Shown here piece by piece: positions 2,717 to 20,926 of a DNA stretch of 22,474 nt (position 1 is its first letter; each line of letters starts with the position of its first letter). This stretch comes from a virus. The notes beneath the pieces were generated by a model. The model searched no databases. It worked only from the letters and a program-made list of their open reading frames with translations, and was not told the DNA's origin. Made by a program: the position numbers and the translations under genes. Location: IMG/VR virus record IMGVR_UViG_3300005664_000104, positions 1 through 22,474 of that record. The stretch is one strand, 5' to 3'.

Positions 2717-2896
2717 TTAAAATTCTAAATCATTAGTGTTGTGTAATTTTTTTCTAAATTCATCATCATTTAAATAGAGAAATATAGATCTATCTACTAA
2801 TTTTTGTAGTGAAAATTTGGATGACACACATTTAATTTTGAATTGATCAAAAGTATCAGGATTTACCTTAACGCTAGTTAAAATTTTAGGCTTCAT
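2717..2896 (-). CDS. Small ribbon-helix-helix-like protein
   Basis: This 59-residue frame starts at ATG 2896. The segment TSVKVNPDTFDQFKIKC (residues 7-23) has the alternating beta-strand pattern of a ribbon-helix-helix N-terminus. Two amphipathic helices follow, around SLQKLVDRSIFLYLNDDEFR. That order (strand, helix A, helix B) and the length fit an Arc/CopG/MetJ-type dimeric DNA-binding protein, most likely a transcriptional regulator. It lies 38 bp after the Cas4-like nuclease stop and 43 bp before the HNH gene. Its target is unknown. No cognate toxin lies next to it, so an antitoxin role is less likely than a phage regulator. The fold assignment comes from pattern only. Confidence 0.65.
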   Translation of the reverse strand: MKPKILTSVKVNPDTFDQFKIKCVSSKFSLQKLVDRSIFLYLNDDEFRKKLHNTNDLEF

Positions 2897-2934
2897 ATTT
2901 ATACGTTTTTTATTTTACGTATATAAATATATAA

Positions 2935-6055: not shown

Positions 6056-6961
6056 CTATTTATTATTTATAATTCTTGAACAAAGACCTAGAAAACATAT
6101 TTGTTTATCTGGACTAGTAGTACTTTGGAATGCGCTTTCTGCAATATACCAAGGATCAATTGAATTATTTGACCAATCATCTAAACGTTCCGATAGAAGT
6201 ACGTATAATTCTGTATAGTCACGAAGTTGAAGATCAATTACTATTTTTCTTATTTTATTTAGATTTTTTGATTTAAGGTATCCAATTAATTCATCACTTA
6301 CTTTGCTTATATTTGAAGATGAATCAGTAACAATCAATTCGCCTGATTTAGAAAATGATTGTAATTTGATTAATGTTTGACGATTATCAGGATAGCAAAT
6401 ATTTACCACTTTAGCTATGTCTTTTAAATCGTATTTTATTTGTTCTTGTTCAAGAATATCTTTACATTTTTTAGCTAGTTCTTGTTTTGTAGGAGGGTGT
6501 AATTCATATCTCTCTAATCTAGATTGAATCGGTTCCAACATTCTTTCGAAATAGTTACAAGTAAATATAAAACGAGTATTTAATGAAAATGTTTCAATTG
6601 TATTACGTAATGCGGATTGAGCATTTGCTGTAAGGAAATCTGCTTCATCTAATATAATAATTTTAACAGGTTTAAATGATGCAGATGAAGCAAATGAATT
6701 TACTTTTTCACGAATAGTTTCGATACCATTTTCACTTGATGCATTTATATACAGAGAATCGCAATCAATACAGTTTACTATCAACTTAGCACTCGTAGTT
6801 TTACCACAACCAGCTTTACCACTAAGAATTATATTGGGTATTGTTCCTTCTTGTATCCACCTTTCTAAATCTTTTCTATAATTTTCATTACCTATATAGC
6901 CATCCAGAGTGTTAGGACGATAACGTTCAGTCCAGAGATAATGCATTGGGTTCATTTCCAT
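6056..6961 (-). CDS. 44: T4 gp44/RFC-like clamp loader ATPase
   Basis: This is a 301-residue AAA+ ATPase. [15 protein letters not shown] (residues 10-24) is the usual clamp-loader N-terminus. GKAGCGKTT (48-56) is Walker A and IIILDEADF (101-109) Walker B. FIFTCNY carries sensor 1, and [11 protein letters not shown] contains the Ser-Arg (SRC-like) arginine finger. The length is close to T4 gp44. It should act with the gp62-like protein (4624-5031) to open the gp45-like clamp (10146-10868) onto primed DNA. The annotated ATG at 6961 lies inside the 3' end of an HNH remnant. Two in-frame ATGs follow (residues 3 and 6), and the domain begins right after the second, so the true start could be 6946. 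Confidence 0.93.
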
Positions 6962-7142
6962 AATCTAATTTATCTTTTTTAATATCACGATTTACTTTAC
7001 TACATAATGGTTGAAGGTTTGTGTAATGATTTAATCTTATTACATCTTCAATACTTTTAGCTTCACTAATAGGTATTTTATGATCAATATCCCAATCAAA
7101 ATTTAATTCGCCATTATATTTACCTTTATTATCCCAAGTCAT
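6927..7142 (-). CDS. Truncated HNH homing endonuclease remnant (family copy 2)
   Basis: This 71-residue frame holds only the HNH core: [14 protein letters not shown], then [20 protein letters not shown]. The catalytic Asp-His and Asn-His residues are intact. The frame stays open upstream of the ATG to a stop at 7266-7268, and that stretch still reads TYEILGCTFEEF and NKFEPW as in the complete copies. The zinc-finger N-terminus and linker are lost and the remnant begins inside the end of the 96-residue gene. Its 3' end overlaps the gp44-like start by 35 bp. It may be a decaying endonuclease or may still be made as a mini-HNH protein. Confidence 0.6.
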
Positions 7143-7584: not shown

Positions 7585-9294
7585 TTAAAATTGAGCTTCT
7601 TGTTCTTTTCTATCTTCTCTACGTTCGTATACTAGGTTGTTTGTAGTAAGGATAGTACTTGCTACTGATGCTGCATTAATCAATGCACCTTTAGTAACTT
7701 TCATTGGATCTAAAATACCTTCTTCCTTCATATTAACAATTAACTCTGATTTAAGATTATATCCAAACCAAGGGTCATATATTTTAGTATGGTTAGATTT
7801 TTCTAAATTTGGTTTGGTCCAAAATTTTAACGTTTCTAATCGAGTTTTACTTCTATTATATCTATTTATTCCTACTAATTTATCATACAATTCCTGTATC
7901 CTATTTATATTATACCCAGCATTTTCCAAAATTCTTTGGAAGGGGGCTGCACAAGCATCCATAATAATTTCCTGTCCTAATTTAATGTCCTTATCTTCAG
8001 ATAATTCTATATTATTAAGTGCATATAATAATGCTACTCCTCCTCCAGGTAAAATACCTTCTTCCAAGGCTGATTTGGTAGCGAATAATGCATCTTCTAC
8101 TCTATCTTTCTTTTCATCAATCTCTAGTTCAGAATTACCTCCAACTGAAATAATAGCTACTCCACCAATTAATCTGCCTAGACGTTCTTGTAGTTTTTCT
8201 TTTTCAAACATTGATTGACTTGAGTCAATTTGTTTTTTCAACTCTTCAGAACGTTTTTCGATGTCTTCTTGAGTACAATCACCGTCAACAATGGTAGTTT
8301 TGTCTTTAGAAACATTTACTGTACGTGCAGAACCTAAGAATTTAACAAATTGTGCTTCAGTTAATTTATCTAACTTAAATCCCTTTTCTGGGGAAATTAC
8401 CTCACCACCAACAATAATAGCTAGATCTTCCAACACTTGAGTTCTTCTATCACCATAATCAGGTGCTTTAACAGCCACTGAATTGACAATTCCTCTCATT
8501 TTATTTACAATAAGAGTAGATAGGGCTTCTCCTTCAATATCTTCTGCAATAATAAGCAATGGTTTGTTTTCAAGATTAGCTTTGTTCATTACCCCAACAA
8601 TATCAGATGCTGCTGTAATTCTACCATTATAAATTAATATTAATGGTTTTTCCAAAGTAGTAGTCATAGTATCGTTATTTGTAACGAAGTATGGTGATTT
8701 ATATCCTCTATCAAATTGCATACCTTCCACAACTTCTAATGAAGTTTCTCCAGATTTTGATTTTTCAATAGATACAATACCTTCTCTACCAACTTTCCCT
8801 ATAGCAGCAGCAATCAACTCTCCAATTTCAGGATCGTTATTACCAGAAATAGTAGCAACCTCTTTAATTTGAGAATCTTCGGTAATATCCACCTTAATTT
8901 CATTAAGATAAGTAATTACTTGTTTTACAGCATCATCAATACCTTTCTTTACTTGTACTACATTAGAACCTGCTTCTAGAGCTTTAAAACCTTCTTCAAT
9001 AATAGAAGTAGCTAATAGTGTTGAAGTAGTTGTTCCATCTCCATTTTCGATGGCAGATTTAATTGCAACTTCTTTAACCATTTGAGCTCCATAGTTTTCG
9101 ATTTCATTTTCTAATTCATGAAATGATTTAGCTACAGAAACTCCATCTTTAGTTGCTCTTCTTTTTCCATATTGATCTTGAATTAATACACTACGTCCAA
9201 AAGGTCCTAATGTATCCGAGACAGCAGAATTTAGTTTTTTAACACCTGCTATAATTCCTTCTTTTAATTCTTTTCCGCTTGATACGTTTGTCAT
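7585..9294 (-). CDS. groEL: Phage GroEL-like chaperonin
   Basis: This 569-residue protein is clearly a group I chaperonin. It has [23 protein letters not shown] (Asp50, equivalent of Asp52 in E. coli), [11 protein letters not shown] (residues 85-96, ATP site), [29 protein letters not shown] and [14 protein letters not shown]. The apical domain is complete. Two deviations stand out. Between NAG and ILDP in the late equatorial domain there are about 73 residues instead of about 40, an insertion of roughly 33 residues containing [12 protein letters not shown] and YDPWFGYN. The C-terminal tail also lacks the usual GGM repeats and ends [10 protein letters not shown]. It follows groES by 10 bp and ends at a strong terminator. 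It probably folds phage proteins in place of, or together with, the host chaperonin. Confidence 0.96.
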
Positions 9295-9304
9295 ATATTT
9301 GTTT

Positions 9305-9604
9305 TTATTCTTCTATAATTGCTGCTGGTAAGTCTGTTATTCCACAAATAATGAAATCTTCTCCATCAATTTTTTGTTTTGTACTTCCCATAGGTGGTAT
9401 TAATACAGTATCTCCGACTTTAAATTTACAGGGAGCTTCTTTTCCTAGATTAAAATTATATATAGGAGTTATAGCTATAATAACACCCTGTAATAATTTG
9501 GTATTCTCCAAATCTGGTACCACGATGTTTCCATATACTTTTTCACCTTCTTCGATAGGTTTAATTATTGTTTGTCCGTAATTTGGTACTAGCCTTTTTG
9601 CCAT
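9305..9604 (-). CDS. groES: Phage GroES-like co-chaperonin
   Basis: This 99-residue protein has the co-chaperonin fold pattern. An N-terminal strand, GQTIIKPIEEGEKVYGNIVV, ends in the mobile-loop region. Its IVV-P-D sequence (residues 27-31) corresponds to the GroEL-binding IVL tripeptide. A LLQGVIIAITP strand and a FKVGDTVLIPPMG strand-turn follow, then GEDFIICGITDLPAAI at the C-terminus. Length is typical (about 95-100). The extra YNFNLGKEAP segment may enlarge the roof or a surface loop. Its ATG overlaps the stop of the preceding gene (TAATG) and groEL follows after 10 bp, the classical groES-groEL order. Confidence 0.93.
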   Translation of the reverse strand: MAKRLVPNYGQTIIKPIEEGEKVYGNIVVPDLENTKLLQGVIIAITPIYNFNLGKEAPCKFKVGDTVLIPPMGSTKQKIDGEDFIICGITDLPAAIIEE

Positions 9605-11319: not shown

Positions 11320-12066
11320 TTAAAAACTTAATCTATTTCTTTTAATTTCTCGGTTTACTTTACTACAAAGAGGTTGGAAATTAGTATAATGATTTAATCT
11401 TATTATTTCTTCCTCATTACATGCACTACTTGAAGGGGTAATATGGTCTAGGTCCCAATTTTTATTGAATTCGAGAATTCCATCTTTTGGGTCTCCTTTA
11501 TTTTCCCAATTCATCCAAGGTTCGAATAAGGACTCGATATAAATTTTAAATTCTTCAAAAGTACAACCAAGTATTTCTTCGGTTCGTTTAGATTTATAAT
11601 AATCATCTCCTAAAATAGATTTTAAACTTCTCCAAATATTATATCTAATAGACTTTGTTAATTTATATTGTGGGTTTATTTTTACTTTATTATTCTCATA
11701 ATCTCTTTTATTTTTCTTAACTCGTTCAGGATTACGTATATTCCATAATATACTGCGTAATTTAGCAGGTTCAGGATCATCTATATATCTCTGTTTATTA
11801 TTTTTATTTATAGTATGTTTATTTTCATTATAATAATTTCCACGATAATCGGGATTATTGTCATACCATCTATTTACTCTATCGTTATGTTCTTCTTTAT
11901 TATCTAAATAATATTGAGCCCAATATTCAGATGTTTGACCCTTTCTTGAGTCTCTATACGATTTATTACAATTTTTACATTTGGTGTTATAACCATCACC
12001 TCTAGTTTTGTCTTTTGAAAATTGATTTAAATCTTTAGTTACTTTACATAAAATACATTCTTTCAT
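11320..12066 (-). CDS. HNH homing endonuclease (family copy 3) after the polymerase C-terminal gene
   Basis: This 248-residue protein belongs to the same HNH family. The N-terminal zinc module is MKECILCKVTKDLNQF with CKNC near residues 30-33. A long Asn/Lys/Tyr-rich linker with several YYxxN units follows, then ILGCTFEEFKIYIESLFEPW and NKNWDLDHITPSSSA...LNHYTNFQPLC. The Asp-His and Asn-His catalytic elements are intact. It starts 2 bp after the stop of the polymerase C-terminal gene, so one homing endonuclease flanks each fragment of the broken polymerase (the EDxHD enzyme follows the N-terminal one). It may have taken part in the gene's fragmentation, or may simply have inserted in a tolerated position. 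Confidence 0.88.
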   Translation of the reverse strand: MKECILCKVTKDLNQFSKDKTRGDGYNTKCKNCNKSYRDSRKGQTSEYWAQYYLDNKEEHNDRVNRWYDNNPDYRGNYYNENKHTINKNNKQRYIDDPEPAKLRSILWNIRNPERVKKNKRDYENNKVKINPQYKLTKSIRYNIWRSLKSILGDDYYKSKRTEEILGCTFEEFKIYIESLFEPWMNWENKGDPKDGILEFNKNWDLDHITPSSSACNEEEIIRLNHYTNFQPLCSKVNREIKRNRLSF

Positions 12067-12068
12067 TA

Positions 12069-12974
12069 CTATGAGAAATTAAAATAATCCGCAATATACG
12101 AATTAAATATTGGGGATCCCCATCTTAAATCGGAATATATTTTTTCTATTTTATTATACAAAATAGAAGTAAATAGTTTATCTTTATCAATGTATTCTTC
12201 TACTAAATCTAATATGAAATCAGGATCATTAGTCCCTTTAACTGCTATTAAATCTATTTTTAATGGATTTTTCTTAAGATAAATTAAATATATTTTATCC
12301 CCCAGTTGGATTTGAGGATACTCTTGATCTAATTTTTTAAATTTAATTAAATCATTATAAACTATGGATCCCCTACTATTCATAGGACATTTTTTAGCTA
12401 AACTAGAGAATATTTTTCCTGAAGGGGGAGGGGCTGATATATATTCCCCTATTTTCTTAACTCCAGAAGGTTTACATATATCTAACCATGGAGCTCCGTT
12501 TATAGAGTCCCTAAATTCAATAAGGAACTTATCAACTTCCGATTTAGAAGTAGAAAATAATATCTTTTTAATAATTTCAGAACCAAAACTACCAAAAAAC
12601 TTAGGATAATTACTTTTTACTATATCTAAACCCATTACTACTAATTTTTCGATAGGCATACCTTCTTTATCTACTAAGAATTGAGCATAACGACGTTTTC
12701 CTGACCAATATGCTGATTGTAATATAAATTCGGGCTTTAAATCAAAATAATGGTCATCAGAATTTAATATACTTTTTGCTATAATACTTTGATAGTCATT
12801 AAGAATAGGTCTTAATTCTGTCTGTAGTGCTTTAGCTTTAGGTAAAGTATCCGGTACAGAAGTTAAATCCAAATCAGGATATAATTTTTTTAAAATAGGT
12901 TCAAAACATATAAAGGCACTATCTGTATCAGATGCAACGATATGTTTGTTTATTTTTTGTATATCAAAATTCAT
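12069..12974 (-). CDS. 43: Family-B DNA polymerase, C-terminal fragment (motif C, thumb)
   Basis: This 301-residue protein starts MNFDIQKINKHIVASDTDS. Asp16 and Asp18 are motif C (DTDS), the second half of the polymerase metal site. YWSGKRRYAQF (residues 89-99) is the KxxY motif that contacts primer DNA. The rest is thumb-like, with a C-terminal ILYNKIEKIYSDLRWG helix region. There is no exonuclease domain and no motif A or B; these are in the gene at 16175-17977. The first residues continue almost without a gap from the last residues of that fragment. No intein sequence is visible. The two proteins presumably assemble non-covalently into one polymerase, as reported for split gp43 in phages such as Aeh1. 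The ATG overlaps the stop of the upstream gene by one base. Confidence 0.9.
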   Translation of the reverse strand: MNFDIQKINKHIVASDTDSAFICFEPILKKLYPDLDLTSVPDTLPKAKALQTELRPILNDYQSIIAKSILNSDDHYFDLKPEFILQSAYWSGKRRYAQFLVDKEGMPIEKLVVMGLDIVKSNYPKFFGSFGSEIIKKILFSTSKSEVDKFLIEFRDSINGAPWLDICKPSGVKKIGEYISAPPPSGKIFSSLAKKCPMNSRGSIVYNDLIKFKKLDQEYPQIQLGDKIYLIYLKKNPLKIDLIAVKGTNDPDFILDLVEEYIDKDKLFTSILYNKIEKIYSDLRWGSPIFNSYIADYFNFS

Positions 12975-13333
12975 TATATTAATTTAAGTGCTTCAACTAA
13001 TCCTACTTCTAACGCTTCTTCATACGTTCTATAAAAACATTCTGTTGTTTTATTATGGGTCCTATGAAAAATAGTTACTGAATAAGTATTCCAACCTAAC
13101 TCGTCATCATAGTAATTACATTCTACTTGAACTATAATTTTATTAACTTCTCTTAAATGTTTTTGTAATAATGATTGAGTTATTTGAAAATACCATGGTT
13201 GATATTCTCTAGGATTATAATTAGAATTAAGATTTTTAGGATTTTCGTTATCAATAGTTAAATATGGTATTAAATCAAACCCTTTTTCTTTAGCTAAACG
13301 TGCTGTCTCAAAACTTATTAATTGCTCTTGCAT
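12974..13333 (-). CDS. Hypothetical phage protein, paralogue of the 14796-15164 gene (119 aa)
   Basis: The function is unknown. The N-terminus (ISFETARLAKEKGFD), a central strand-turn with tryptophan (YQPWYFQITQSLLQKHL) and the C-terminus CFYRTYEEALEVGLVEALKLI follow the same plan as the protein at 14796-15164 (PYKEALALKELGFD...FRWFREKY...TYEEAELSCLRKLIEIV). I associate this architecture with a small-protein family common in Bacteroidota phages and prophages, without a known role. It is coupled to the polymerase C-terminal gene (one-base overlap) and overlaps the upstream gene by 16 bp. Confidence 0.72.
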   Translation of the reverse strand: MQEQLISFETARLAKEKGFDLIPYLTIDNENPKNLNSNYNPREYQPWYFQITQSLLQKHLREVNKIIVQVECNYYDDELGWNTYSVTIFHRTHNKTTECFYRTYEEALEVGLVEALKLI

Positions 13334-13677
13334 AATTCTAGATTTAATGGATTATTCCAATAATTAGGTAATCCGTATTTTTTAATATTTTTACCACCTT
13401 CCCAATTAACTCCCATTGAGTTAGGGTCTTGATATTTTGTAATAATACCCTTTAATTCAGTACCTGAATATACGACCTCTTTATGATATAACTCGTTACA
13501 ATTAATACATTTTATTGAAGTCATTTTTAATTTAAGTCCTTCATTACTATACCAATTTCCATTACATAAATGAACTTTAGACACGTAAGTTCGTTCTAAG
13601 TTATTGTCTAATAGGAATAAATTAGTATCGTTAAAATAACTATTTTCTCTATATTTTAGTAAGGTTTTCAGACTCAT
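13318..13677 (-). CDS. Hypothetical phage protein with CxxC motif (119 aa)
   Basis: This is an unrecognised protein. It starts SLKTLLKYRENSYFND, has a basic middle with a CINCNELYHK segment (a CxxC pair and a nearby His) that could hold half a zinc site, and ends PNYWNNPLNLELCKSN. The LPNYWNNPLNL wording recalls the landing part of HNH-type proteins but the catalytic residues are absent. It overlaps the 58-residue membrane protein gene by ATGA and the 119-residue downstream gene by 16 bp. It lies inside the interruption between the polymerase fragments. Confidence 0.66.
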   Translation of the reverse strand: MSLKTLLKYRENSYFNDTNLFLLDNNLERTYVSKVHLCNGNWYSNEGLKLKMTSIKCINCNELYHKEVVYSGTELKGIITKYQDPNSMGVNWEGGKNIKKYGLPNYWNNPLNLELCKSN

Positions 13678-13850
13678 AAATATTTATCCATTTTTGAATT
13701 ATTTGGGATTAAATACCAAAAATCTTCCATACTATCCCTTTTAGTTATCACCCAATATAAAGGGTATAAACATAATGAAATTAAAAATAATATAATAAAT
13801 ATTGGTAATACGACCCCTCTATAAAATACTCCTAATATAAATTTTTTCAT
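13674..13850 (-). CDS. Small single-pass membrane protein (58 aa)
   Basis: This 58-residue frame is linked on both sides by ATGA overlaps, which argues strongly that it is real. It starts MKKFILGVFYRGVV and has one long hydrophobic stretch (about residues 12-34, rich in Ile, Leu and Phe, ending LYPLYWVI). A charged tail of about 20 residues follows (TKRDSMEDFW). The basic N-terminus suggests a short cytoplasmic head. It could act at the host membrane (exclusion, lysis control or replication anchoring), but nothing specific can be read. Confidence 0.62.
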   Translation of the reverse strand: MKKFILGVFYRGVVLPIFIILFLISLCLYPLYWVITKRDSMEDFWYLIPNNSKMDKYL

Positions 13851-14533
13851 TTGATATAATCTTTATATGCGATGAAATCATCATCTTTCCCAGGTTCGTC
13901 ATCATCTCCAAGTCCTAAACTTTTAAGATGTTCTCTCATATGTTCATCCATATCCCATTCAACTATTCCTGTTCCTGTTTGTGGAATATGAGACTCAATG
14001 TCTTTAATTTGTTTTTTAGTGAAAACATCACCAACTGTTAAATAATAACAATTATAACAAACTAACTCTAGGTTATTTCCTCTCCAATTTCTTCTATTTC
14101 CATCTTTGAAACTAAGGAGTAATGGAACTTTATAATCTAATATTCGAGCTTCATTAAATCCACACCTTACACATTTTTCTTCCAAAATGGCATCAATAAT
14201 CAGTCGTTCTTTGAAAGTGTTTATATCATAATTATCTATTGTAGTAATTTCACCACTTAAAATCATTCTAAGTTCACCTTTAGGTGCTCTTACATATTGA
14301 CTATATTGATTTTTTTTCTTTTTACCTTGTAAAAATTTAGGAATACCTTTACCACATTGATTTTTATGTTTTTCATATAGAGTTTTACCGGTCTCAGGGT
14401 CAAAATACAACTTAGCATAAATCATATAAGTCCAATAACTTATATTAAGGTATCGGGCTGCGGCCTTATTTGACTTAGTGACAGCCATTGCTCTAAGTAT
14501 GTCTTGCTCACTCTGTGGTTTAGCTACTGGCAT
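13847..14533 (-). CDS. HTH and degenerate HNH-like zinc protein (228 aa)
   Basis: The N-terminus (SEQDILRAMAVTKSNKAAARYLNIS, described by its helices) looks like a helix-turn-helix of the kind that senses sequential growth of helices. A basic linker (QGKKKKNQYSQYVRAPKGE) follows. Then comes a zinc module with CVRCG (Cys121, Cys124) and CYNC (Cys159, Cys162) around KDGNRRNWRGNNLELV. The spacing is that of HNH nucleases, but the catalytic His of the first strand is replaced (LLLSF) and the His after the second Cys pair is Tyr (NCYYL). It is therefore probably a DNA-binding regulator rather than a nuclease. The tail is acidic. It sits inside the polymerase interruption, coupled to the membrane protein gene. 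Confidence 0.72.
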   Translation of the reverse strand: MPVAKPQSEQDILRAMAVTKSNKAAARYLNISYWTYMIYAKLYFDPETGKTLYEKHKNQCGKGIPKFLQGKKKKNQYSQYVRAPKGELRMILSGEITTIDNYDINTFKERLIIDAILEEKCVRCGFNEARILDYKVPLLLSFKDGNRRNWRGNNLELVCYNCYYLTVGDVFTKKQIKDIESHIPQTGTGIVEWDMDEHMREHLKSLGLGDDDEPGKDDDFIAYKDYIK

Positions 14534-14793
14534 TATTTCTTAATTTGTTCAAACCAATCCTTAAAGGATGGTTTATCATTATTCGGGTTTTCACCATGTA
14601 AGTTTAATCTATAATCTAAAAATTCATCAAAATAACCCCTTTTATCAGATATAAAAAGAGTAGATATTTCATCTAATGTATAACTTCTTTCAGCCTGCCA
14701 TTTAACACCTGCTATAAAACCTAATTCATATCCATACATTTGATTTGGAGTTGTCTTTCTATATCGTTTAGCGGCTTTTTCTAATTCTTTCAT
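14533..14793 (-). CDS. Hypothetical small phage protein (86 aa)
   Basis: The function is unknown. The arrangement GFIAGVKWQAERSYT in the first half and FKDWFEQIKK at the end is one I associate with small proteins found widely in Bacteroidota phages and prophages. It is helical and contains no metal or catalytic motif. It uses the AGTTATG start context and overlaps the next gene by one base (TAATG), so it is co-translated with the HTH/HNH-like protein. It supports the host assignment more than any specific role. Confidence 0.7.
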   Translation of the reverse strand: MKELEKAAKRYRKTTPNQMYGYELGFIAGVKWQAERSYTLDEISTLFISDKRGYFDEFLDYRLNLHGENPNNDKPSFKDWFEQIKK

Positions 14794-14795
14794 AA

Positions 14796-15164
14796 CTATT
14801 TTTGTTTTACTATTTCGATTAATTTACGGAGACATGATAATTCTGCTTCTTCATAAGTTTTCCATTGTTGGTTTGGATTATTATTTTCCCAATCTATTTC
14901 AGAATAAATAATATAATCATACCAAGAAGTTTCTGTTGTTTTTCCACCTTTAAAAATTGGATAACCTATTATATGGTATTTTTCTCTAAACCATCTAAAA
15001 GCTTGTTGATAAAGAGGAGATGAAATATAGTCTTTATTAAAATTAACTAGTTGTAAATTTCTTCTTATACTACCTTGCTTGTTAAAGTATGTAAAACATT
15101 GTTCATCAAAACCTAATTCTTTAAGTGCTAGTGCTTCTTTGTAAGGTATAAATTCTTTTTCCAT
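14796..15164 (-). CDS. Hypothetical phage protein, paralogue of the 12974-13333 gene (122 aa)
   Basis: This protein of unknown function begins EFIPYKEALALKELGFDEQC. It has an aromatic central helix (SPLYQQAFRWFREKYHI) and ends KTYEEAELSCLRKLIEIVKQ. The layout matches the protein at 12974-13333, so they are likely paralogues flanking the interruption. I associate it with a family frequent in Bacteroidota phages. A promoter-like site lies 17 bp upstream and the AGTTATG context is present, so this gene may head a small operon that continues to the polymerase C-terminal gene. Confidence 0.74.
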   Translation of the reverse strand: MEKEFIPYKEALALKELGFDEQCFTYFNKQGSIRRNLQLVNFNKDYISSPLYQQAFRWFREKYHIIGYPIFKGGKTTETSWYDYIIYSEIDWENNNPNQQWKTYEEAELSCLRKLIEIVKQK

Positions 15165-15180
15165 AACTTTCTTATTTGAG

Positions 15181-15211
15181 TAAATATACGAATTTTATTT
15201 TAGGAATCCAA
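15181..15211 (-). promoter_or_regulatory. Bacteroidota-type promoter inside the polymerase interruption
   Basis: On the minus strand TTG (15209-15211) is followed by 20 bp and TATATTTA (15181-15188), with the shared core TTCGTATATTT (15182-15192), 17 bp before the ATG at 15164. The -33 element lies in the last codons of the EDxHD gene. It could give the polymerase C-terminal gene a supply independent of the N-terminal one. Confidence 0.58.
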
Positions 15212-16132
15212 TAAACCTTTTAAAATTAGATTTATATTACTGAATTCAATATATGCTATTCTAATTAATCCTATATTATTATCTTTACAGAATTGGTTTT
15301 TAATTTGATCTAATCTTATTTGTTTATCTAGAGCTTTTTGACCTCCAAAAAATTTAACAGGGATAGTATGTAATTGACCATCATATTCTACACAAATGTT
15401 TTGTTTAGGGAGATAGAAATCAAATTTTAATTTATGGTTAGTTTCAGGATTAATACATTTATCGAATTTTTTCTGTGTTTCATATTTAATATTATTCTCT
15501 TTTAAGAATAATTCAACACTTTCTTCCCCTTTACTATTATTACATTTAGGACATCTTTGTCCAAATAAATGGTTACTTATTTGTTGTTTAAACCAACCAT
15601 GTTTTGGACATTTTATTCTAAATCCAGGATCATAATATCCTTTATAAGAGTCCCAATCATATTCGAAATCATGACCTAAGTTAAACACTTTTTCTTTTAT
15701 ATTATCAAGAGTTAAAGAGTTTCGTCCATAAACGGCACACTTAGGACATTCATGTTTTGGATGTATATGATTAGTCCATAGTTGTTTAAAAATTCCATGA
15801 TCTTTACATATTATCGGAACTACAGTATCAGTTTTAAAATCTTTAGTTATTAATGAGTAGTCATATTTAAAATTATGAATTCGATTAGCTTGAGTTATTT
15901 TTTCTAAATACGTTAACTTATGACCTTTACATTTAGGACATTTAGACTTTTTATTTATATGATTATCTAATGAAACTTCCCAAACCCCATGTTCTTTGCA
16001 TATAATGGGATATTTTTTCATTACACCTTCATACTCTTTTATTAAAGAATAATCATATTCACCATGAATTGTATTTGCCTTATTAATAAAATATTCCAAA
16101 CCCATTCCTTTTTTTAAAAACTTAGTAGCCAT
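15200..16132 (-). CDS. EDxHD (Vsr-like) homing endonuclease between polymerase fragments
   Basis: This 310-residue protein has three similar N-terminal modules (about 11-69, 75-132, 141-197). Each contains an IICKEHG-, IICKDHG- or IKCPKHG-type strand and a CPKC pair, i.e. treble-clef zinc units that would recognise DNA. The C-terminal domain (about 200-297) is a PD-(D/E)XK-like nuclease of the EDxHD class: GEESVELFL supplies the Glu, FDFYLPKQ the first Asp (238), VEYDGQLH the His (255), and IRLDQIK the last Asp (275). LIRIAY follows. This class (for example I-Bth0305I) is known from fractured phage genes and intron-borne endonucleases. It lies 42 bp after the N-terminal polymerase fragment. 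Confidence 0.88.
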   Translation of the reverse strand: MATKFLKKGMGLEYFINKANTIHGEYDYSLIKEYEGVMKKYPIICKEHGVWEVSLDNHINKKSKCPKCKGHKLTYLEKITQANRIHNFKYDYSLITKDFKTDTVVPIICKDHGIFKQLWTNHIHPKHECPKCAVYGRNSLTLDNIKEKVFNLGHDFEYDWDSYKGYYDPGFRIKCPKHGWFKQQISNHLFGQRCPKCNNSKGEESVELFLKENNIKYETQKKFDKCINPETNHKLKFDFYLPKQNICVEYDGQLHTIPVKFFGGQKALDKQIRLDQIKNQFCKDNNIGLIRIAYIEFSNINLILKGLLDS

Positions 16133-16156
16133 AAATCCTATTTAATTGTGTGGCTA

Positions 16157-16186
16157 TAAATATACGAAAAAGAATTAAGTATTCAA
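16157..16186 (-). promoter_or_regulatory. Bacteroidota-type promoter of the EDxHD endonuclease gene
   Basis: TTG (16184-16186 on the minus strand) is followed by 19 bp and TATATTTA (16157-16164), with the core TTCGTATATTT at 16158-16168, 25 bp before the ATG at 16132. It sits across the stop codon of the polymerase N-terminal gene, so the endonuclease carries its own promoter. Confidence 0.58.
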
Positions 16187-17977
16187 ATATTTTTCATCAA
16201 TTACTTCATTAGCATATTTAATAGTTTGTACAAGCATACGTTGTCCTGTACAAGTTATAGCAGAAGATAAGACCTTATAACCATCAGTAAAACGCCAACT
16301 ATTGATGGCGAAGGCACCGTATACTGCGTTTAATAATACTTTATTTACTAATTGCTTACGATCATATAAATTTCCTAAATCTTCATTTCCATTTTTATAA
16401 GCTTCTTCCATTTGTCTTTTAAACTCTTTCCTCATTCGGAACCAATCTGTAAGTACATCAGCTACAATACTTCTTTCATCAGTTCGGAAACAAACTCCGT
16501 TAGCAGATATAGTCCATTTCTTACTTTCTATAGTTTGAATAAGTTTTTCTACAGTAACTTTATTAGTTGAAAATTTATAAGTTTCTTTATTTAGAATTTC
16601 GAATTCTAATTCAAGTTTAGGATCTTTATTTTTTAAATCTTCTAGCCCCCACCAAATATTTCGTGTTGGATTGTCTATAACAATTCTACCTACTAAGGTT
16701 TCGATTCCCAGATTAAGACTACGAATAATAGATGGATATAAACTCGCATAGTCATAGTCACTTAACCAGCGGTAGACACCGGGACATGGGTCGAGGAGGA
16801 AGCCTCCAGCATATCCTTCTTTTTTCTTAACTGTTTTTAGTTCGCGCGTCTTTAGTTCATTAGAAGCGGTTTTAACCACAACAAAATCACCATCAATAGA
16901 ATGTATTTCTCCCTCAATTGTTGATGTACCTCGCTGATGTACAACCAAGTCACCTTCGTTAAGTTCTTTAATTTCTTTGTTTACTGTAGTAGGTTTATTA
17001 TGAACAACTATTTTCTTACGTTTAAGGTAAGTAAGAATAGCTCCTTCATTTAATACAGTATTAAAATAAATAGATTCATAAGGGGTATGACATAAATGGG
17101 AAATCAAAACTGTTAATTGTACGAATTGTAAATTTTCTTCCAATTTTTCCAATATCTCAACATCTCGAATATTATATTCGATATACTTTTCAGGATCTTT
17201 AGCTAATAATTCGTCTAGATTACCAGAGTATTCAATTTTTCCTAATTTAGCATATTTTATCCCAATATTATTTAATGTATATGAAGGTTCTTCACGTGTG
17301 ATATATTTCTTTAGAAGACGCATGAAATCCAAACTTGATATACCACCAATTGTTATTGGTTTATCAGGCATAGCTGGGTTATTAATTAACTTTTTAATTG
17401 GGGATAATAAATTTGCTGTTTCTTCACCAAATATTTTAAGTATTCTGCAGTAAAGATATGGTATATCGAAGAAATCTGAATTATATCCTATCAGTATGGT
17501 AGGGTCAATTTCTTTCCACATTTTCAAGAATTTATTAATCATATCCCTTTCAGAATAACACGTAATAACTGTGTTTATTCCGATTGTTTTATTTTCTAAT
17601 TTACCTGCTGTATCTACAATCCAACATATTCTTTTCTTTTCTTTACCTTCAAAATAGGTTAAAGCAAGTGATGTTAATTCTGCAGGAGCTGCTTGTATGT
17701 AACTAGGAGTTAATGAACCTAATAATTGGATCTCAATATCCAGGTAAACTATATTATGGAATGTAGGTTGTGAATCATCTTTGTAATAGAAATCTCTAAG
17801 TACTGCTACTTCTTTTGTGATATCCTTTTCTAAAATTTGATTATCAAACCAATCATACTTTCCTTCAACTTTAGAAACTTTTTTCCCGAATAGTGTTGTG
17901 TACTCACCTTCTTCATCTAATTGATAAACAGGGGGAGTGTATTTAAAACGTTTCCAACCCTGTTCATCGTCTTTCAA
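16175..17977 (-). CDS. 43: Family-B DNA polymerase, N-terminal fragment (exonuclease, motifs A and B)
   Basis: The fragment has 600 residues if a TTG at 17977 is used. Exo I is IVYLDIEIQ (Asp80, Glu82), Exo II GYNSDFFDIPYL (Asp171), Exo III YNIRDVEIL (Asp272), motif A DYASLYPSII (Asp409) and motif B KVLLNAVYG (Lys546 to Gly554). It stops after GQRMLVQTIKYANEVIDEKY with no motif C, which is in the gene at 12069-12974. Polymerase-like sequence continues in frame upstream of the TTG to about 18050 (SIYQERRKGNPDRGYTYL, the expected first strand). The true protein therefore probably starts near 18040, but no ATG, GTG or earlier TTG is present there. About 57 residues (332-388) between Exo III and motif A form an extra beta-rich insert. 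Confidence 0.9.
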   Translation of the reverse strand: MKDDEQGWKRFKYTPPVYQLDEEGEYTTLFGKKVSKVEGKYDWFDNQILEKDITKEVAVLRDFYYKDDSQPTFHNIVYLDIEIQLLGSLTPSYIQAAPAELTSLALTYFEGKEKKRICWIVDTAGKLENKTIGINTVITCYSERDMINKFLKMWKEIDPTILIGYNSDFFDIPYLYCRILKIFGEETANLLSPIKKLINNPAMPDKPITIGGISSLDFMRLLKKYITREEPSYTLNNIGIKYAKLGKIEYSGNLDELLAKDPEKYIEYNIRDVEILEKLEENLQFVQLTVLISHLCHTPYESIYFNTVLNEGAILTYLKRKKIVVHNKPTTVNKEIKELNEGDLVVHQRGTSTIEGEIHSIDGDFVVVKTASNELKTRELKTVKKKEGYAGGFLLDPCPGVYRWLSDYDYASLYPSIIRSLNLGIETLVGRIVIDNPTRNIWWGLEDLKNKDPKLELEFEILNKETYKFSTNKVTVEKLIQTIESKKWTISANGVCFRTDERSIVADVLTDWFRMRKEFKRQMEEAYKNGNEDLGNLYDRKQLVNKVLLNAVYGAFAINSWRFTDGYKVLSSAITCTGQRMLVQTIKYANEVIDEKYLNT

Positions 17978-19307: not shown

Positions 19308-19808
19308 TTAAAATATTGATGTATTAAGGGTTAAAATAGGTAATTTTTTACCTCTTGATTCTAGTAAATATACAGATTCTTGAAATATTTTTTCTAACCC
19401 CTGATTAAAACCCATAACTGAATTTAAATTCTTCCCTGGTTCCTCTTTTTCATAGAAAAAAGATATAGTTTCTTTACTACATTCGGTTTTAATTACCATA
19501 TCAGGTAAGTGATATCCATTTTTAGCCATTCTCCTTAGTAATCTGAATCCAAGAATACCTTCTACTATAATATGATAACCAGAGTAGTAATACTCATTCA
19601 CATCTCGTTCTAATATATTTAATGCTTCATCTTGATCATACATTCTAATATAATCATCTGATATAAATAAAGTTCTATCGTCTAATTGTTTAGATAACTC
19701 TTTTGCTATAGTAACCTTTCCACTTTTTGTAGCTCCGATCACAAATATTAAAGTAAGTGGTCTGCAATAATCAACAATTTTTGATGTTATAAGTGATTTA
19801 GGATCCAT
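19308..19808 (-). CDS. P-loop kinase-like protein (166 aa)
   Basis: The segment LIFVIGATKSGKVTIAKEL (residues 20-38) is a Walker A motif (GATKSGKVT). LFISDDYIRMY (about 47-57) has the paired Asp often found in P-loop kinases that phosphorylate small molecules or polynucleotide ends. YHIIVEGILGFRLLRRM may carry the Walker B strand with Glu. The length suits a small nucleotide- or polynucleotide-kinase-like enzyme (AAA_33/zeta-like). No toxin-antitoxin partner is visible. It overlaps the end of the upstream gene by 11 bp. The substrate cannot be assigned. Confidence 0.7.
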   Translation of the reverse strand: MDPKSLITSKIVDYCRPLTLIFVIGATKSGKVTIAKELSKQLDDRTLFISDDYIRMYDQDEALNILERDVNEYYYSGYHIIVEGILGFRLLRRMAKNGYHLPDMVIKTECSKETISFFYEKEEPGKNLNSVMGFNQGLEKIFQESVYLLESRGKKLPILTLNTSIF

Positions 19809-20166
19809 ATTTACTAATTATACCTAACTGGAAATATTCTTTAAAATCATTAAAATTAGGATTATGATTTGTTATAAAAATTCTGTCACCTATTTTATAA
19901 TCATATGTAGTTCCTTGTCTAGTAAACACTAAATTGTTATTAATTATATACAAACCTTCCGTGAAATCAGCGATATTCTGCTCGACTAAAGGAGGTTGTT
20001 GGGGTGTGGTGTTATAAGGAATTAATGCATTTAAAGCGTCTCTCCTGCGACCGCAGCCACAGTCTTCAATACCTAATATATCAGCAGTTTTTTCTACCAG
20101 AGTCGAAACTCCGGTAGCTTTAAAAACTTTTTCTAATGTGTCTCCTAATCCAACAGATTCTGCCAT
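19798..20166 (-). CDS. Hypothetical phage protein with DCGCGRRR motif (122 aa)
   Basis: The N-terminal half (VGLGDTLEKVFKATGVSTLVEKT) is helical. The motif DCGCGRRRDALN (residues 36-47) looks like a conserved signature of a family that I recall from T4-like marine phages, often written DCGC-x-RR-x-x-LN. After a proline-rich linker, the C-terminal half forms strands (GLYIINNNLVFT, GTTYDYKIGDRIFIT) and ends LGIISKYGS. The role is unknown. Its start lies 22 bp inside the 3' end of the HNH gene upstream. Confidence 0.68.
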   Translation of the reverse strand: MAESVGLGDTLEKVFKATGVSTLVEKTADILGIEDCGCGRRRDALNALIPYNTTPQQPPLVEQNIADFTEGLYIINNNLVFTRQGTTYDYKIGDRIFITNHNPNFNDFKEYFQLGIISKYGS

Positions 20167-20777
20167 TCTATTTTATTTTTCTTTATTTCACGATTTATCT
20201 TACTACAAAGAGGTTGTGTGTTATTATATTTTAACAATTTTAATAACTCTTCCTCATTTTTCGCGCTACTCATAGGTATTATATGGTCAATATCCCAACC
20301 ATAATTAAATTCTCCATTATATTTACCATAATTTTCCCAATTCATCCATTCTAAAAATTGAGATTCTATATATTCTTTATAAAATGTAATAGAACAATTT
20401 AAAACATCAATAGTTTTGGATTTTCTTTCAAAACCCAAATTATTAATACTATTTCTTATTTGTATTCCAGAAGTTGTTTTTAATCTAAAAAGAGGATCAG
20501 TATCATATTTATTTTTACGATATATCTTTTCTTTTTGTTTTAAATCATCTTTATTATCTTTATACCATTGTTTATGATATTCAGTTCTATCATTTTCTTC
20601 TTTATATGTTTTAGAATAAGATAGAATCTTATCTCTATTTTTAATATAATATAAAGAAGTATTTTCTTTTACACAGGACTTACAATGAATACTCAAACCA
20701 TCTTCTCTAGCTCTATTTTTATTGAATTCATTTAAAGGTTGGATTTTCTTACATTTAGTACATATTTTAGTTTCCAT
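20145..20777 (-). CDS. HNH homing endonuclease (family copy 4)
   Basis: I place the start at ATG 20777, because METKICTKCKKIQPLNEF then lines up with MKTCKKC and MKECILC of the other copies. A TTG at 20819 would add 14 residues that lie within the paired hairpin element. The protein has the zinc module (CTKC, CKSC), a Lys/Asn-rich linker, a family segment with FYKEYIESQFLEWMNWENYG, and the core GWDIDHIIPMSSA...NTQPLCSKINREI. The Asn-His of the second element is changed here (KYNNTQPLC in place of NHYTNFQPLC), so activity may be reduced. The 3' end overlaps the start of the DCGC protein gene by 22 bp. Confidence 0.84.
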   Translation of the reverse strand: METKICTKCKKIQPLNEFNKNRAREDGLSIHCKSCVKENTSLYYIKNRDKILSYSKTYKEENDRTEYHKQWYKDNKDDLKQKEKIYRKNKYDTDPLFRLKTTSGIQIRNSINNLGFERKSKTIDVLNCSITFYKEYIESQFLEWMNWENYGKYNGEFNYGWDIDHIIPMSSAKNEEELLKLLKYNNTQPLCSKINREIKKNKIEWQNLLD

Positions 20778-20784
20778 AATACAA

Positions 20785-20869
20785 AAGGAGAAATTAAGAG
20801 TTGTATCTGGTCCATACAAATTCCTAAAATCTCCTTAAAAATATTTTTATTAAGCAGGACCAGTGCTTA
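20785..20869 (-). ncRNA. Structured RNA candidate: two hairpins with complementary 7-nt loops
   Basis: On the minus strand the first hairpin has a 6-bp stem TAAGCA/TGCTTA (20864-20869 with 20851-20856) and loop CTGGTCC. The second has a 6-bp stem TTGTAT/ATACAA (20814-20819 with 20801-20806) and loop GGACCAG. The loops are exact reverse complements over all 7 nt, as in kissing complexes such as ColE1 RNA I/RNA II. The second hairpin is enclosed by AAGGAGA (20830-20836) pairing with TCTCCTT (20785-20791), which would hide a Shine-Dalgarno-like AAGGAG. The element lies downstream of queE and just before the HNH start. The function is inferred; the pairing itself is plain in the sequence. Confidence 0.6.
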
Positions 20870-20926
20870 TTTACGGATATAAATATTGAAGAGAACAAGA
20901 AATATCAATAAACCTTTTGATTCCAT
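20867..20926 (-). CDS. Possible 19-residue membrane peptide coupled to queE
   Basis: The frame MESKGLLIFLVLFNIYIRK starts with an ATG that overlaps the queE stop as TAATG and is preceded by GAGGAG at ideal spacing, one of few Shine-Dalgarno-like sites in the window. The peptide is one hydrophobic helix with charged ends. The stop codon lies in the stem of the first kissing hairpin. It may be a real small membrane peptide or a translated leader controlling the RNA element. A chance frame of this length cannot be excluded. Confidence 0.35.
   Translation of the reverse strand: MESKGLLIFLVLFNIYIRK

Follow-up and report, generated by a model that had tools for sequence, protein, structure and literature searches.

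Kissing hairpins with covarying loops precede phage homing-type nuclease genes of two unrelated folds

Leader hairpins control the expression of several phage homing nucleases, including I-TevI, I-TevII, I-TevIII, segB, and mobE (PMC2988022). These T4-type leaders each consist of one hairpin with the ribosome binding site buried inside it, and a late promoter lets late messages escape the block (PMC2988022). Each is paired with a dedicated promoter and limits expression, an arrangement to which the leader described here is likened (PMC2988022). A different geometry is seen in seg43 of Aeromonas phage 25, where a stable hairpin lies directly 5′ of the start region and the ribosome binding site remains uncovered (PMC2988022). 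Here we examine a pair of short hairpins in a phage genome that, like the leaders of I-TevI, I-TevII, I-TevIII, segB, and Aeh1 mobE (PMC2988022), places structured RNA just 5′ of a homing-nuclease start codon.

The analyzed stretch of DNA, hereafter the window, comprises 22,474 nucleotides (22.5 kb, 28% GC) from a virus record. It comes from a phage of the Flavobacterium/Cellulophaga type, as its queE resembles that of Flavobacterium phage immuto and of Cellulophaga phages. The closest relative in IMG/VR is contig L021, whose queE is 77% identical. The family B DNA polymerase of the window (12069-17977) is split into two reading frames, 16175-17977 and 12069-12974; the DNA that separates them holds several small ORFs and a homing-type endonuclease of phrog_559 (15200-16132). 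Genes for GroEL-like (569 aa) and GroES-like (99 aa) proteins occupy 7585-9604. All the larger genes are on the minus strand, so the hairpins are read on that strand as well. The coding-strand order is the queE stop codon (20928-20926), a vestige of an interrupted gene, a promoter-like box, hairpin H1, a linker, the long hairpin P2, a U-tract, and the ATG of an HNH gene (20777):

20867-20926, minus strand: vestige of the original start of a 122-aa gene (MESKGL..., then a stop), the left insertion boundary
20877-20885, minus strand: promoter-like box TATTTATAT, about 7 nt 5′ of H1
20851-20869, minus strand: H1, TAAGCA-CTGGTCC-TGCTTA, seen in the sequence; all 6 pairs change on both sides across the 7 copies
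20857-20863, minus strand: kissing loop 1, CUGGUCC, complementary to loop 2 at 7/7 positions
20837-20850, minus strand: AU-rich linker of 14 nt between H1 and P2; an A-rich stretch is partly conserved in alignment A8
20785-20836, minus strand: P2, AAGGAGA/UCUCCUU plus UUAGGA/UCUUAA plus apical UUGUAU/AUACAA, from the minimum free energy (MFE) fold
20807-20813, minus strand: kissing loop 2, GGACCAG, pairing with loop 1
20783-20786, minus strand: start of the U-rich tract that runs from the P2 base to the ATG; 6-7 U in the 8 bases after CUCC in 7/7 copies
20145-20777, minus strand: HNH (endonuclease VII-like) nuclease gene; phrog_1035 endonuclease VII, E 6.7e-17
19798-20166, minus strand: the 122-aa gene with its new start MAESVGLGD, the right insertion boundary; its 5′ end contains the HNH stop

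An earlier sequence-only reading had reported two 6-bp hairpins with 7-nt loops that are reverse complements of each other. Both are present exactly as described, and the loops match at 7/7 positions with complementarity ending at the loop edges. H2 (TTGTAT-GGACCAG-ATACAA, 20819-20801), the second hairpin on the coding strand and the first in plus coordinates, is enclosed by the AAGGAGA (20836-20830)/TCTCCTT (20791-20785) stem that had also been noted, and in addition by the inner UUAGGA/UCUUAA helix, which had been missed. An in-frame TTG start inside P2 (20819) is probably unused; family members start at ATG. Short hairpins abound in AT-rich DNA, and the window contains 14 with a 6-bp stem and a 7-nt loop, as a chance origin would have it. 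Exactly one pair within 100 nt is fully complementary, however, and such a pair appeared in 0/300 first-order Markov simulations of the whole window; together with the seven covarying copies described below, this leaves chance a negligible explanation. The placement "downstream of queE" given in that reading is correct as to position, but what the hairpins form is the 5′ leader of the HNH gene, and they move together with genes of this kind.

Comparison with L021 delimits the inserted DNA. The 60-nt vestige, which overlaps the box and H1, keeps ATGGAATCAAAAGGTTTA, matching the start of the uninterrupted L021 homolog, MEKKSKGLGD. The 122-aa gene is 55% identical to L021 5013-5372, and in L021 no nuclease precedes it; nuclease and leader are both absent from this site, and no HNH gene of the family was found in the 180-kb L021 contig. 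The empty site and the boundary remnants in the window thus define the inserted unit as box, leader, and ORF, and for this one empty site the sequences show that the cassette moves in that form. The window gene is of HNH type and its insertion is missing from the site in the relative, as expected of a free-standing HNH homing endonuclease; the Pfam HNH match of its protein lies below the cut-off. The window holds three further HNH genes of this family (1999-2673, 6927-7142, and 11320-12066), none with this leader. Two of them overlap the beginning of the gene that follows (a glycosyltransferase and a clamp loader), like the leader-bearing HNH gene, which suggests that insertion at gene starts is a habit of these enzymes.

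Because the cassette lies inside the start of a gene and the first codons of that gene are still found upstream of it, and because loop-loop contacts occur in the periphery of group I introns, it could be the remnant or periphery of such an intron carrying the nuclease, a resemblance the earlier reading had raised. That origin is scarcely credible: Rfam returns no intron match, either at the gathering threshold or with E relaxed to 5; the gene downstream starts from an ATG of its own; and the nuclease ORF runs into that gene, leaving no room for a P3-P8 core. Group II intron and RNA-guided (IscB-like) readings likewise find no support in the anatomy, and a riboswitch for queuosine is rejected, the preQ1-II match being weak and on the other strand.

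The leader occurs in seven copies, each directly 5′ of a nuclease ORF: one in the window, two in L101, and one each in L208, L201, L216, and L233. The six further copies lead five HNH (endonuclease VII-like) genes and one GIY-YIG homing endonuclease gene, and loop-loop complementarity was never a criterion for selecting them. L101 was found by an exact search of IMG/VR with H1, and its element leads another HNH gene; the HNH proteins of the window and L101 are only 40% identical, whereas the 97-nt element is 90% identical by a method that gives 62-67% for unrelated AT-rich coding DNA. The second L101 copy (L101b) was found with covariance model R1, which was built without the loop-loop pairs. 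A search pattern confined to the lower P2 stem retrieved L201 and L208, which are close relatives of each other and make up two of the seven copies, and the same pattern retrieved L216 from bacterial assemblies. Model R2 found L233, whose nuclease scores above the Pfam cut-off for GIY-YIG and matches phrog_314 homing endonuclease (E 3e-23). L216 and L233 sit on contigs of one small-genome bin; no further copies were found in 49 family genomes of that MAG or in a phylum sample of 380, and because these roughly 400 relatives lack the element, the two are probably mis-binned phage contigs. In L208 (2600-4360), the leader-nuclease cassette adjoins a cluster of about ten tRNA genes.

A model search of 100 whole viral or phage records gave strong matches only in records already known and in the L233 contig, blastn of several copies against INPHARED gave nothing significant over the element, and most HNH family members in our collection have no such leader. 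Several candidates were set aside: pattern matches in L102 and L103-L111 are due to chance, genome matches L213-L215 are a Clostridia gene start, weak model matches L227 (terminator-like), L228, and L237 are unrelated sequence, and Flavobacterium phage FL-1 GIY-YIG, LR756502, JBD44, and others show no such leader by eye or by fold. Since the genes upstream of the other copies are not queE, termination after queE, one of the roles first suggested, is not supported as the main function. From the sequences compared, the element is very probably a portable nuclease leader.

The copies also supply the check proposed along with the kissing-loop structure, namely homologs in which changes in loops and stems are compensated; the check was passed on the copies found, and the RNA structure is borne out by covariation. 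H1, the apical stem of P2, and both kissing loops change together. The loop pairs are CUGGUCC/GGACCAG (three copies including the window), CUUGCC/GGCAAG, CUUGCCC/GGGCAAG, AUGGUAC/GUACCAU, and AUGGUAA/GUACCAU (6/7), so that matches in the six further copies are 7/7, 6/6, 7/7, 6/7, 7/7, and 7/7; in L101b, one matching base is missing from both loops. With the kissing pairs included, 94.1% of cells in the seven-copy alignment are paired, compared to 40-45% for slid partners, and 17 pairs show double changes. The covariation score is 0.507 against a shuffle mean of 0.198 (0/500 as high) and falls to ≤0.10 when partners are slid, the shuffle controls ignoring the relatedness of the copies and the slid controls not. 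For the kissing helix alone, 97.9% of cells pair versus 19-45% when slid, with a score of 0.476 that none of 500 shuffles reached.

The lower P2 stem is nearly invariant in sequence, while the apical stem covaries. One G-U pair in the lower stem is kept in 6/7 copies and would be a C-A mismatch on the opposite strand; its conservation therefore identifies the coding strand as the source of the functional RNA. The 90-nt leader of the window folds with z = -4.2, and all seven copies fold better than their shuffles (z from -3.1 to -5.3). Among the Rfam 15 covariance models, none gave a relevant match to the copies in the window, L208, L216, and L233. Taken together, the sequences make it almost certain that two hairpins pair through 6-7 bp between their loops, within a structured RNA of about 90 nt that is apparently undescribed and is carried by viruses of Flavobacterium-like bacteria.

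These results bear on whether the conserved object is DNA. An operator for the nuclease, a homing site, or a recombination boundary would be common to different mobile cassettes, as this element is, and I-TevI does repress itself through an operator at its promoter (PMC2988022). Against such a role, the compensated hairpin and loop-loop pairs and the G-U wobble point to RNA from one strand, and HNH and GIY-YIG enzymes would hardly have one common site. The element is also missing from the uninserted L021 locus and moves with the nuclease, which rules against the landing site for the endonuclease suggested at the outset. A DNA-level function is accordingly very improbable. About as improbable is a trans-acting RNA that the nuclease would bind or, as RNA-guided nucleases do, use as a guide. 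A conserved structured RNA adjoining a nuclease gene, with a nearly invariant lower P2, is what one would expect of such a partner, but the element precedes two unrelated folds, conservation reaches the AUG, there is no variable unpaired guide stretch, and the variable loops pair with each other. Because the leader precedes both HNH and GIY-YIG enzymes, control in cis is what appears to be kept, and cis control of nuclease expression is likely on the present sequence evidence.

The region 5′ of the hairpins suggests where the transcript might begin. The nine bases of the TATTTATAT box are invariant in the six copies of alignment A7 and present in the seventh (L233), always 5′ of H1, and the box resembles TATATTTA boxes that lie 24-35 nt 5′ of other ATGs in these phages. 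Bacteroidetes promoters carry TAHHTTTG, a motif often found 4-5 nt 5′ of the site where transcription begins (PMC6847099). Transcription from the box would then start a few bases before H1, and H1 is the probable 5′-terminal element of the RNA. The linker may hold a second promoter, whose messages would lack H1. A TTCGTATATTTA box recurs 24-35 nt 5′ of ATGs in the window (2895-2930 and 16150-16170) and in intergenic regions of L101, L201, and L208; it is probably the phage promoter -7 element, with A replacing the G of TAHHTTTG.

A 5′-terminal hairpin locked by the kiss could instead protect the message, blocking 5′ decay and raising nuclease output. H1 does fall within a few bases of the predicted transcript start, and compact kissed folds resist nucleases. 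Protection nevertheless leaves unexplained the fixed spacing from P2 to the AUG, the conserved U-tract, and the invariant lower stem, and we consider it unlikely.

The features next to the start codon favor the leader reading. The CUCC at the P2 base ends 9-12 nt before the AUG across copies, and this fixed spacing is joined by an unusual U-rich start context: at least 10 T in the 15 nt before the ATG occur at only 5% of 76 ORF starts in these contigs, where starts are A-rich. In all copies P2 is a stable hairpin followed directly by a U-tract, as in an intrinsic terminator or attenuator; a simple terminator scan that requires uninterrupted stems does not call P2, whose stem has internal loops. 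In Flavobacterium, structure near the start is known to tune initiation (PMC6847099). In the mechanism we envisage, the leader would fold as H1, linker, and P2 with the loops kissing; P2 and the U-tract, lying in the initiation region and resembling an attenuator or terminator, would keep nuclease output low or timed; and the loop-loop contact would set how firmly P2 closes. If the kissing stack were straight, the 13-14 nt linker would by rough estimate have to stretch, which counts against the mechanism, as do the leaderless HNH genes in the window and in most of the collection and the close kinship of L201 and L208. A plain hairpin or terminator has no need of the near-invariant lower P2, and something may read that sequence. 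Attenuation and control of initiation are nearly balanced as the route, with a slight lean toward the former. Overall, the explanation that fits best, and which we hold to be reasonably probable, is a portable cis-acting 5′ leader of phage homing-type nucleases that holds their output low or timed. The first suggestion of control over translation of the HNH gene came close to this and is here widened to expression of the nuclease.

Masking of a Shine-Dalgarno sequence, proposed for the AAGGAGA stem, is unlikely. The AGGAGA lies about 53 nt 5′ of the ATG, outside usable spacing, and the probable analog in elemo phages has ACCCUC/GAGGGU in that place. Bacteroidia ribosomes, moreover, fail to recognize Shine-Dalgarno sequences (PMC9976891). 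The region 5-15 nt before the AUG offers only UCUCC and the U-tract, rather than a consensus Shine-Dalgarno sequence buried in a stem about 8 nt before the AUG; for want of that buried site we do not file the leader among the T4-type members that sequester the ribosome binding site.

Leaders of similar plan may exist elsewhere. Flavobacterium elemo phages (L219 1395-1500; L220 and L242 alike) have a sequence-unrelated HNH leader laid out in the same way, with a TATATTTG box, a weak hairpin that contains CCGCCAAG, a long hairpin whose loop includes CUUGGCGG, a U-tract, and the AUG. Its loop complement spans 8 nt (CCGCCAAG/CTTGGCGG) and the long hairpin is terminator-like; the three alleles are near-identical and so show no covariation. 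A scan of 75 unique nuclease leaders passed only the window, L233, and L006, against a chance expectation of 0.10; the elemo leader, also among the 75, was not called by this criterion, since RNAfold predicts another local fold. In L006 (3952-4003), an HNH leader forms two hairpins with complementary 7-nt loops, CCGTAAT/ATTACGG. The second carries the Shine-Dalgarno sequence, and genes of this phage have strong Shine-Dalgarno sequences; CACUUCC of the first hairpin could also pair with GGAGGUG, and structure prediction assigns greater stability to an alternative fold. We treat the elemo and L006 leaders as leads, not members. That kissing-hairpin leaders evolved repeatedly and serve phage homing nucleases generally as a switch, with at least three sequence-unrelated versions (the seven-copy family, elemo, and L006), is a tentative idea that we regard as doubtful. 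Within the family, the two copies in L101 differ in their loop pairs, and so do L216 and L233, which fall in one bin; such distinctness may be maintained to let two elements coexist in a genome.

That leader RNAs hold phage homing nucleases in check was known before (PMC2988022), and the kissing-hairpin version appears to be new; in Rfam and the literature, as far as our incomplete coverage extends, we found no kissing-hairpin leader common to HNH and GIY-YIG enzymes. The element adds a structured RNA with a covariation-supported kissing contact with no match among Rfam 15 families, and one leader common to nucleases of unrelated folds implies that what stays constant in these mobile cassettes is the RNA and not the protein. 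Unlike T4-type leaders, it consists of two kissing hairpins with the box 5′ of both. The seg43 hairpin resembles it in position but is one hairpin without loop-loop contact, known from one case and with no covariation described. Intrinsic attenuators likewise place a hairpin and then a U-tract ahead of the coding region and have a partner element further 5′; here, however, the lower stem is near-invariant and interrupted by U-U mismatches, and the partner pairs with the apical loop rather than with a stem strand. In ColE1-type RNA I/RNA II, fully paired 7-nt loops are free to change if both change. The present loops pair and co-change in the same manner, but those of ColE1 lie on two RNAs from opposite strands and these lie on one RNA. 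Known phage homing-nuclease leaders hide the ribosome binding site; since Shine-Dalgarno sequences go unread in Flavobacterium-type hosts, the kissing-hairpin leader would represent another way of restraining a dangerous enzyme.
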